64,000 nt of DNA, from NCBI RefSeq assembly GCF_001042595.1, contig NZ_AP012326.1, positions 682,001 to 746,000 on the forward strand, written 5' to 3'. Position 1 is the stretch's first letter. Each line of letters opens with the position of its first letter. Positions 25,105-33,711 of the stretch are shown here, piece after piece. The notes beneath the pieces are model-generated. The model was given only the letters and a program-made list of their open reading frames with translations, searched no databases and was not told the DNA's origin. The position numbers and the translations under genes were made by a program. This DNA is from Bifidobacterium dentium JCM 1195 = DSM 20436. Lineage in GTDB: Bacteria; Actinomycetota; Actinomycetes; Actinomycetales; Bifidobacteriaceae.

Positions 25105-25110
25105 TATAGT
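25105..25110 (+). promoter_or_regulatory. Orphaned -10 box of the original guaB promoter
   Basis: TATAGT is followed by gtgtct and then AT, so in the uninterrupted chromosome the guaB ATG would lie exactly 6 bases after the -10 box, as in a leaderless transcript. The element now separates it from guaB. Confidence 0.55.
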
Positions 25111-25118
25111 GTGTCTAT
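25108..25118. other. Left attachment site (attL core AGTGTGTCTAT)
   Basis: An exact 11-base match to 33701-33711, extending to 14 of 15 with the bases before it. It lies about 100 bp from the 3' end of the element's integrase. Confidence 0.75.
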
Positions 25119-25220
25119 TAACGTGATGCCGCTAGGTAAACCCGTCAACGCCTTGTATTGCAACGCTTTTCAGCGCTCAATACGATGGTCCAAAAACGCT
25201 ATTAGCAGACAATCCGGCAT

Positions 25221-26399
25221 TTATCCGGCATTTTCAATCATCGTCTCGAGCGCGTTCGCGGCCTTGCCGCTGTTGCGTCCCCGGGCGATATACACGTTTT
25301 CCGTGGTTGCCGTATCGGAATGGCCCAGATAGTCGGCGACGTCCAGAGTGTTCAATCCGGCGTCATGCAACAGCGAAGCGCATGTTTTCCGTAGCGAGTG
25401 GGGTGACAGGCTCTCGCCTTTTCCGAAACCCAACGCCTCACGTTCACGCCGCAGATCACTGGCCACGACATTGGGAGAACGTACCAGGTATTCGCATGAG
25501 CCACCCGACAAAGGGCGCGGGAACACGAGGTTATGAGGGTTCGGGATGCCGCCGGTATCAAGGCTTATCCTGCGTAATTCCAGCATGTGCATTATCGATT
25601 TGGGGGCTGTGATGGTCCTTCGACTGTGTTCGGTCTTGGGGTGCGCCTGCAACGTCATGCCCTCGCCCTTACATCGGATCGCTATACGTTCGACGCTCAA
25701 TGTCCCCGCCGTGAAATCCACGCAATCCCAGCATAGGCCGCACGCCTCGCCTACGCGTAGGCCGGTGTACAGCATCAGACGGATTATATCGGCTTCGTCA
25801 TGGCTTACGAGCCATTCGTTTGTTTCGACGGCCTTGAGGAACTTCTGCACCTTGTCGGCAGGGATCGCCACGGATCCCTCCCGGTGCCTGCTCATTCGTT
25901 TCAGGTCCCGCACGGGATTGTGCAGAATCGCGCCCTGGGCCACGGCCATCTCCATCATGCCGGAAAGCACAAGTTTGACCATGGACACCGTGGCGCTGCC
26001 TGATCCGCCGGCCACGCCATCGAGGAACGTCTGCAATACGAGCGGGGTTGCCTCGGCGATGGTCAGCGAGTCGAGACGCGACACGTATTTCCGGTAGGCG
26101 TTCGTGTAGGCGTTGATGGTGTTTTCCGCCTTACCGGTTTGCGTGGCCAGCCACAGGCCGGCGAGATCGCCTAGGGTCGTGTTCGGTTCGATGGCGCCGA
26201 ACGTCCTGCGTTTCAGCTGCTGGCAGTACTCCTCGAGTAGGATTCTCGCGCGTTCCTTTGATGGGGCGGAACGTTCCAGTTGCCGGAAACTGCCGTCGTT
26301 CATGCGCATGCGGCAGTGCGCCACCCACTGGCCTCCTTCGTTGTGGGTGTAGCGGAACGTGCCATGCTGTCCGATGGGAATACGTGGCCGTGGCATCAT
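25221..26399 (-). CDS. int: Tyrosine integrase of the guaB element
   Basis: 392 residues in the usual three-domain actinobacterial layout. An N-terminal arm-binding AP2-like domain (FRYTHNEGGQWVAHCRMRMND) is followed by the SAM-like domain and the catalytic domain, with R215 (TGLRVGEA), K255, H334 and R337 (HSLRKT), H360 (LGHSDTATT) and nucleophile Y370 (ENVY). Its 3' end faces attL. Its ATG overlaps the stop of the upstream HTH gene by 4 bases, so the two are co-transcribed from the divergent control region. It is unrelated in detail to the prophage integrase. Confidence 0.95.
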   Translation of the reverse strand: MMPRPRIPIGQHGTFRYTHNEGGQWVAHCRMRMNDGSFRQLERSAPSKERARILLEEYCQQLKRRTFGAIEPNTTLGDLAGLWLATQTGKAENTINAYTNAYRKYVSRLDSLTIAEATPLVLQTFLDGVAGGSGSATVSMVKLVLSGMMEMAVAQGAILHNPVRDLKRMSRHREGSVAIPADKVQKFLKAVETNEWLVSHDEADIIRLMLYTGLRVGEACGLCWDCVDFTAGTLSVERIAIRCKGEGMTLQAHPKTEHSRRTITAPKSIMHMLELRRISLDTGGIPNPHNLVFPRPLSGGSCEYLVRSPNVVASDLRREREALGFGKGESLSPHSLRKTCASLLHDAGLNTLDVADYLGHSDTATTENVYIARGRNSGKAANALETMIENAG

Positions 26400-32811: not shown

Positions 32812-33700
32812 CCATTCCTCCCCGCCATCCGTCCTTAGCGTTTCCATCGGACGGCGGGGACACGCACGGGCCCGGCCGAACGCCTCCCTACCGGCCGGGC
32901 CCACCCCCACACCCTAGGGGGCGTTCCGAAAGTTCGATGGAGGGCGCCAAAAGCGCGCCGCCGAAACTCTCCTTTTCGTGTCTGGGGTTTATGGGGCCGA
33001 ACCACCGGCAGGGATGCCGGCATGGCGTCGTTTTCCACGGGGTGGTCACGTCGGCCCCGACCGTGTGCATCGCGCACATGGTTGCCGCCCGCGCGCATGA
33101 GGGTGAGCTGTGCGTATCATACGCACAGTTGGGTTCGGGATACTCGCCAAGGGAGTACCCCGGATATGGGGATTTCCCATGTTCGCCCGGCAACGAATCG
33201 TTGACGGGTTCAGTATTCATGAAGTCACCGCCGTTGGCTCGTTCGATGAACCTCCCTAATACGGAGGATACTGATTCTGAGAGGGTACATGTCCCATCGG
33301 TACCCTTGAAATGGTAAGGGTTTCTTGGGTTTACCAGATGGCCCTGCAGTATCCTCATTGCCTATCGATACCTCTCAAAAGTCGTAGGCCACGTGGGGCA
33401 CGTGGGCCACACGGGACACATGCGCGGCCTATGTGTCCTATCCGGCCTACGTGTCCTACGCCATTCGCATGGTGTCCCTGGACCCGACCTAGGGCGTCGG
33501 CATTCCACCGACCCATGCACCCACATCATGATTCGTGAGATCGCGTGTCCTAGTGTATGTGACACCAGAATTGGCCGGCATTTACTCGGCAGAATCAACT
33601 GCATCATCTGACATCCGGTTATACCGGTTGTCCTGTATTTCTAAAGGCGACGACAATTCTTGACACCCAGCAATAACCCCTAATACATAGGGCGTTATAA
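32812..33700. other. Non-coding, hairpin-rich right end of the element
   Basis: About 890 bases without a convincing gene. Contents: a terminator-like hairpin just after the capsid gene (32821-32859), a 10-bp GGGCCCGGCC stem (32868-32902), a 21-bp palindrome (33108-33128), a GGACACAT/ATGTGTCC stem (33414-33438) within a CACGTGG-rich stretch (33383-33450), and CCGGT/ACCGG (33615-33627). Integrase arm sites, excision sites and a packaging signal are all plausible here. None can be proved from sequence alone. Confidence 0.6.
33108..33128. repeat. 21-bp perfect palindrome
   Basis: CTGTGCGTAT-C-ATACGCACAG, with 10-base half-sites around a central C. It shares the TGCGTA core with the operator-like sites at 27106-27208, suggesting the same regulator may bind both ends of the element. 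Confidence 0.7.
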
Positions 33701-33703
33701 AGT
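33660..33703 (+). promoter_or_regulatory. Element-supplied promoter region for guaB
   Basis: TTGACA at 33660-33665 with TACATA at 33684-33689 (18-base spacer) would give a leader of about 14 bases. Alternatively the hybrid -10 TAAAGT (33698-33703), or TATAAA (33696-33701), would give a leaderless guaB transcript. Which one is used is unknown. Confidence 0.45.
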
Positions 33704-33711
33704 GTGTCTAT
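33701..33711. other. Right attachment site (attR core AGTGTGTCTAT) over the guaB start codon
   Basis: Exact copy of the attL core at 25108-25118. The core includes the last three bases of the -10 box and the first two bases of the guaB ATG. Confidence 0.75.

Follow-up and report, generated by a model that had tools for sequence, protein, structure and literature searches.

Capsid-forming PICIs (cf-PICIs) are described, in the parts of the sources available, as having their own capsid and protease together with portal, connectors, both terminase subunits and HNH, and as borrowing tails only (PMC10690885, PMC11389934). The cos-type SaPIs and P4, in the same partial text, work with the terminase of the helper and with a cos site resembling that of the helper, remodel helper capsids and bring no capsid gene (PMC10690885). 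Two actinobacterial systems, the Streptomyces phage satellites MulchRoom and MiniFlayer, have their own capsid, with heads of about 43 nm, and are reported there to encode terminases, portal, scaffold and adapter, with terminal repeats and virulent helpers (PMC10690885). In Mycobacterium, the small elements phiRv1 (9.3 kb), phiRv2 (10.8 kb) and phiBN42_1 carry an integrase and a major capsid gene, and the excerpts available, which name no packaging site or helper for them, class these elements as candidate PICIs or as prophage-like or defective (PMC10654092, PMC3986857). The five assigned genes of phiBN42_1, which has a 19-bp repeat, are integrase, excisionase, primase, prohead protease and capsid (PMC3986857, in part). 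For the bifidobacteria, a survey assumed, in its available portion, that regions below 13 kb are cryptic or remnant (PMC8705816), and no capsid-only cos satellite of Bifidobacterium is recognised in the parts of the literature returned by our search.

The window analysed here is a stretch of 64,000 nucleotides of Bifidobacterium dentium (G000:C1:682001-746000), taken from a 2.64-Mb single-contig genome. It contains a discrete island of 8.6 kb, at window positions 25108-33711, at the start of guaB. Like the cf-PICIs, this island has a major capsid protein and a head maturation protease of its own, in one fusion gene; unlike them, it yielded no portal, connector, TerL or HNH gene, and the sole packaging-type match among its nine scanned proteins is a weak TerS PHROG hit (E 0.0014) of the excisionase-type protein, below the DNA-binding and excisionase matches of that same protein. 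On this gene content, the island is outside the cf-PICI definition as given in the available text (PMC10690885). It does carry integration genes and a major capsid gene, the combination by which candidate PICIs of the Mycobacterium type are recognised in the accessible part of PMC10654092, and its plan is like that of phiRv1, phiRv2 and phiBN42_1, to which it is likened by description and not by sequence. With MulchRoom and MiniFlayer it shares an actinobacterial host and an own capsid, whereas the further genes, the terminal repeats and the virulent helpers of those satellites set them apart from it. A helper-like packaging site, which is a feature of the cos-type satellites, was found by sequence match, and use of a helper terminase is proposed below; unlike SaPIs and P4, the island has a capsid gene. 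As judged by sequence comparison, what is new here is the packaging-site match behind the capsid gene.

Boundaries and gene content of the island

The features of the island are as follows, in window positions.

25108..25118, no strand: attachment core, left copy, 11 bp, AGTGTGTCTAT (repeat search and empty site in G051)
25221..26399, minus strand: tyrosine integrase, 392 aa (PF00589, 73.2 bits; phrog_1 integrase, E 2e-53)
26396..27097, minus strand: 233-aa protein, possible regulator (weak HTH_23, E 0.09)
27225..27422, plus strand: excisionase-type HTH protein, 65 aa (PF12728, E 1.4e-6; excisionase PHROG, E 1.9e-8)
27523..27801, plus strand: 92-aa protein, start uncertain, with a C-terminal GDGxxR...PFEPLDW common to other islands (blastp to the L024 and L026 islands; motif counts)
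27798..28022, plus strand: 74-aa protein, no family (gene call, family scans)
28009..29331, plus strand: DUF3631 ATPase (PF12307, 153 bits), start at ATG 28009 or possibly at GTG 28291 (gene caller)
28040..28207, no strand: imperfect inverted repeat of 68 nt that includes six GTGSCAC sites and may be a replication origin (fold z -7.0)
29364..29606, plus strand: 80-aa protein with an LCG...CPLCE (zinc-ribbon-like) motif, start uncertain (weak zf-HC3, E 0.014; motif counts)
29676..30281, plus strand: 201-aa protein, no family (family scans)
30412..30525, plus strand: 37-aa ORF (gene call)
30805..32811, plus strand: prohead protease-HK97 capsid fusion, 668 aa (PF04586, 93.7 bits; PF05065, 47.7 bits; PHROG head proteins)
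32918..33006, plus strand: cos-like packaging site, candidate, matching the HNH-terS gaps of three prophages, with a 23-mer core at 32956-32978
33701..33711, no strand: attachment core, right copy, AGTGTGTCTAT, overlapping the first 2 bases of the likely guaB ATG (33710)

The 11-bp repeat alone is within chance, the 95th percentile of 200 shuffles being also 11. Nevertheless, the ends of the island are fixed, because the nearest relative, G051, has the empty site: its left flank, with 91% identity over 1118 bp, runs through a single core into guaB, and its GuaB is 98% identical to that of the window. The repeat copies, this empty site and the family scans bear out the coordinates and the gene content that an earlier note on this DNA had given for 25108-33711, except that the HTH gene it called at 26396-27097 shows only the weak HTH_23 match listed above. 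That note had also pointed to guaB as the place at which to look for the same block in other genomes. When the other guaB loci were compared, each with about 1.5 kb of upstream DNA, island DNA was matched at 0 of 29; 20 further islands of the same plan do occur in the genus (see below).

The insertion separates guaB from its native upstream DNA. A guaB promoter at the island end was considered from the suggestive elements TTGACA (33660) and TATAAA (33696) and was dropped, the promoter scan returning no promoter-like pair.

Nine island proteins were scanned against Pfam, PHROG and NCBIfam, the 37-aa ORF being outside the scan, and none of them matched a TerL, portal, connector, tail, lysis or HNH family. 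Six-frame TerL and portal profiles likewise found nothing in the 19 kb surrounding the island, and the PF04860 portal of this genome occurs only in the prophage at C1:686222. The absence of terminase, portal, connector, tail and lysis genes, claimed from a first reading of the letters, is thus upheld by these scans. An Rfam search gave no match.

The frame of the fusion gene is long and open, and in a 12-row family alignment it is kept in relatives down to about 40% identity. Named relatives of the fusion protein come from Bifidobacterium moukalabense (P0007), Bifidobacterium sp. ESL0775 (P0015) and B. callimiconis (P0016). Pattern scans using the window protein gave no relatives, and no viral contig matched this protein itself. 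A structural model of the capsid was set aside, the AlphaFold2 prediction being of too low confidence (pLDDT 51.8). The fusion protein also gives a weak match to the NCBIfam family 3 encapsulin shell, from which one could suppose a cargo shell, an encapsulin-like compartment with no phage role, on a mobile island. This match reaches 20.2 bits against a cut-off of 180, the prohead protease and phage capsid matches are much stronger, and the gene is followed by the candidate packaging site; we consider a cargo shell highly improbable.

The inverted repeat at 28040-28207, upstream of the ATPase start chosen by the gene caller (28291), contains 6 of the 13 GTGSCAC sites of the whole window and folds much better than its shuffles. 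By these features it is a possible iteron origin. Neither this repeat nor the packaging-site match figured in the earlier list for the island.

A candidate packaging site behind the capsid gene

Comparison of the island DNA with 112 Bifidobacterium genomes, apart from coding matches, led to a candidate packaging site that starts 107 bp behind the capsid gene. Positions 32918-33005 match G051 with 81% identity over 88 bp (E 1.8e-15) and positions 32946-33006 match G074 with 82% over 61 bp (E 7e-9), each match lying about 420 bp upstream of a TerL ORF. The matched prophages are complete-looking and are found in other species. Family scans confirmed HNH, Terminase_4 (terS) and TerL around the site in L033 (G074), and HNH and terS in L101 (G013); in L103 (G051) HNH, Terminase_4 and TerL surround it too, and, with the start of terS uncertain, its open frame extends over the site. 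The cos sites of such phages are known from the HNH-terS gap. With up to two mismatches, the 23-mer CGCCGCCGAAACTCTYYYTTTCG occurs four times in the 112 genomes, in the window island and in the HNH-terS gaps of G051, G074 and G013; since the window and G074 served to define it, only G051 and G013 (2 mismatches each) count as independent occurrences. The reversed 23-mer, used as a control, occurs 0 times. From its position and these matches, 32918-33006 looks like a captured cos site.

A search of phage records gave no match to the candidate site. A 17-base part of it is present on 32 viral contigs, on 6 of which TerL was found, and in 4 of the 32 (L277, L279, L285 and L290) TerL follows this part at a distance of about 450 bp. 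The matches on the other 28 may be due to chance, and L279 is probably the same DNA as G051:C3.

Prophage-like DNA behind the capsid gene was also seen in other islands of the genus. When the post-capsid DNA of 20 islands was compared with 44 prophage loci (871 kb), 42 matches fell 0-1000 bp upstream of TerL, some of them including HNH coding DNA (tails of L097 and L112), and 10 fell elsewhere. These matches come from 8 of the 20 islands, reversed tails giving 0; the post-capsid DNA of the other 12 had no match in the 44 loci. One prophage set is matched by L024, L025 and L026 and another by L097, L110 and L112, and L025 agrees in 22 of 22 bases with L028, a prophage in the same genome. In the present genome, the two resident prophages were rejected as the origin of the packaging site, since blastn of the island against both gave chance-level matches only (best E 0.099). 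Sharing no above-chance DNA with the island, they leave it with no resident helper seen.

A packaging site is enough for loading in cos-type SaPIs and P4, according to the available text of PMC10690885, and an ordinary PICI-like satellite could travel in helper heads by its captured cos site alone, its encoded capsid serving to disturb helper assembly or triggering defence. However, the fusion family conserves the protease part as well as the capsid part, an interference protein has no need of a maturation protease, and the narrow island length described below better suits a fixed small shell. We regard loading into helper heads as unlikely.

Capsid-only islands in the genus and beyond

In 51 of the 112 Bifidobacterium genomes, Phage_capsid (PF05065) gave 80 matches, and the DNA around all 80 loci was scanned with profiles for TerL and portal that derive from prophages of the genus. 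TerL and/or portal were found at 54 loci. At 21 (19 genomes, the window included) an island with a capsid gene and with neither TerL nor portal was found; three loci were excluded (L075, L076 and L072, the last being a prophage divided between contigs) and two (L299, L300) are on short contigs. The claim that a capsid without terminase or portal is rare is therefore wrong for this genus. Contig ends limit two of the 21 islands, L113 and L131, and L026 is close to such an end.

Flanking repeats were found in 19 of the 21, none being found for L113 and L131, and they give islands of 6.9-8.9 kb. In 17 of the 19 the repeats touch a called tRNA gene, the exceptions being the window and L109. Taken together, 18 islands have a mean length of 8215 bp (SD 496, range 6923-8915), and the nineteenth, L297, is 8598 bp. 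The automatic repeat scan missed the 11-bp core of the window, the tRNA repeats of L024 and L099, the only ones they have, measure 15 bp and do not exceed the shuffle maximum of 17, and for L096, L099, L105 and L112 the repeat at the tRNA 3' end was chosen over a longer one. Small motifs also recur in the islands. The GDGxPR-type motif is present at 13 of the 23 loci that lack TerL and portal (a set from which three were later removed) against 0 of 50 others, and the LCG..CPLC motif at 11 of 23 against 1 of 50; these counts are supporting only, since the motifs were defined after viewing the islands and since the early genes may be outside many of the prophage stretches.

L075 (G107) and L076 (G105), in AT-rich genomes, have a serine recombinase, a 774-aa primase-like protein and a 315-aa capsid, with no TerL or portal, and are perhaps another kind of capsid-only element.

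The capsid tree has 73 rows, 35 of 90 earlier rows having been dropped (other prophage capsid types, L072-L076) and 18 added, with L297 absent. Two clades of island capsids stand apart from the prophage capsids. The first contains sixteen islands with capsids of about 280 aa (support 100/98). The second (100/98) contains the window, L024, L025 and L026, and also L027 and eight proteins from metagenomes or databases; the protease is fused to the capsid in the window and L025, and the capsid stands alone in L024 and L026 (383 and 397 aa). The satellite label changes 4 times on the tree against a shuffled mean of 18.3, and 0 of 500 shuffles were as low. Counting against this pattern, some rows are long, and the split is not entirely clean, L172 falling among prophages and L171 (weak TerL, portal) beside satellites.

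The tree and the 80 loci bear on another explanation, in which a larger prophage or a cf-PICI lost its terminase, portal and tail genes by deletion, the capsid and the packaging site being left over. Full prophages are present among the whole-genome neighbours, and L027 (1-8684), in the same capsid clade, keeps more genes on a single 8.7-kb contig: portal, fused protease-capsid, two connectors, HNH and a weak TerS-like gene, the profiles finding no TerL on this contig. By its gene set L027 is a fuller relative of the window's island, and because it keeps more genes it is likely that, in the distant past, a fuller element was reduced. Recent decay, however, would be expected to give varied lengths and broken genes, whereas here the integrase is intact, the attachment copies match, the fusion frame is open and conserved, the packaging site is kept, and 21 islands have the same plan and length. 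The earlier note had fixed beforehand, as the sign of a deletion remnant, the same block inside a larger prophage; it was seen at none of the 80 capsid loci, the nearest exception being L027. The capsid loci and the capsid tree thus make it quite unlikely that the island is a remnant.

Outside the genus, an order-wide search matched 21 of 396 genomes at E <= 1e-15, and 18 loci were taken. TerL and portal were absent at 10 of the 18 by profiles derived from Bifidobacterium phages, which divergent terminases could escape; the same profiles found both in the other 8. L155, L156 and L157 fall in the sister group of the window's capsid clade (100/97). Viral loci were retained as the best 80 of 193. 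L155 and L156 are capsid-only loci from other families of the order with a serine recombinase, and comM-like sequence was noticed by eye on both sides of them.

Proposed packaging route and neighbouring elements

The island is probably a phage satellite of the cos type that makes a shell of its own. The empty site, the 20 further islands of the same plan, the separate capsid clades and the helper-like packaging site support the reading of a satellite with its own capsid and with terminase, portal and tail from a helper, which had been put forward along with its supposed rarity; the comparison sustains the first and not the second. The growth in the cell of a helper phage with a matching terS-terL module would lead the island to excise and replicate. 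The fusion protein would then assemble a shell, probably small, matured by its protease; the helper terminase would cut the captured cos site and load one 8.6-kb unit via the helper portal, and helper neck and tail proteins would complete the particle.

Given the narrow island length, the heads would be very small, around T = 7/3 to T = 3 if published length scaling is applied. The available part of PMC7762592 predicts heads near T = 7/3 and T = 3, of about 43 nm, for genomes of 7.3-8.5 kb, and gives the P4 shell as larger than predicted from its length.

We lean, with less assurance than for the island itself, towards the view that shell-only satellites are an old and widespread actinobacterial class of about 8 kb. 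Their members would have only an icosahedral shell and a captured cos site, terminase and portal being foreign, and both the shell type (two capsid clades in Bifidobacterium) and the site type (at least three prophage sets matched) would change. If true, this would be a satellite strategy between the capsid remodellers (P4, SaPIs) and the capsid-forming PICIs, with the shell own and motor, portal and tail borrowed. Helper portals would then join shells of a different lineage, and mobile satellites would account for many of the small bifidobacterial regions that are filed as prophage remnants. With a helper type and predicted DNA ends specified, the shell-only idea is directly testable, and it bears on the phiRv-type elements.

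The same genome contains other phage-related DNA. At window positions 1399-14653 there is a phage late module with HNH (1399), TerL (2559), portal (4087), a fused protease-capsid (5213-6775), tape measure (8762) and a possible endolysin (13635); it lies near tRNA-Met (15530), with no integrase called nearby, and a late module of the same type is found upstream of guaB in G051 (L127). A second prophage, at about G000:C1 1628600-1658400 (L034, L035), has integrase, TerL, portal, capsid and tail-like genes. Beside guaB, a 62-64-bp repeat forms two arrays of about 3 copies each, at window 35452-35630 and 37043-37269.
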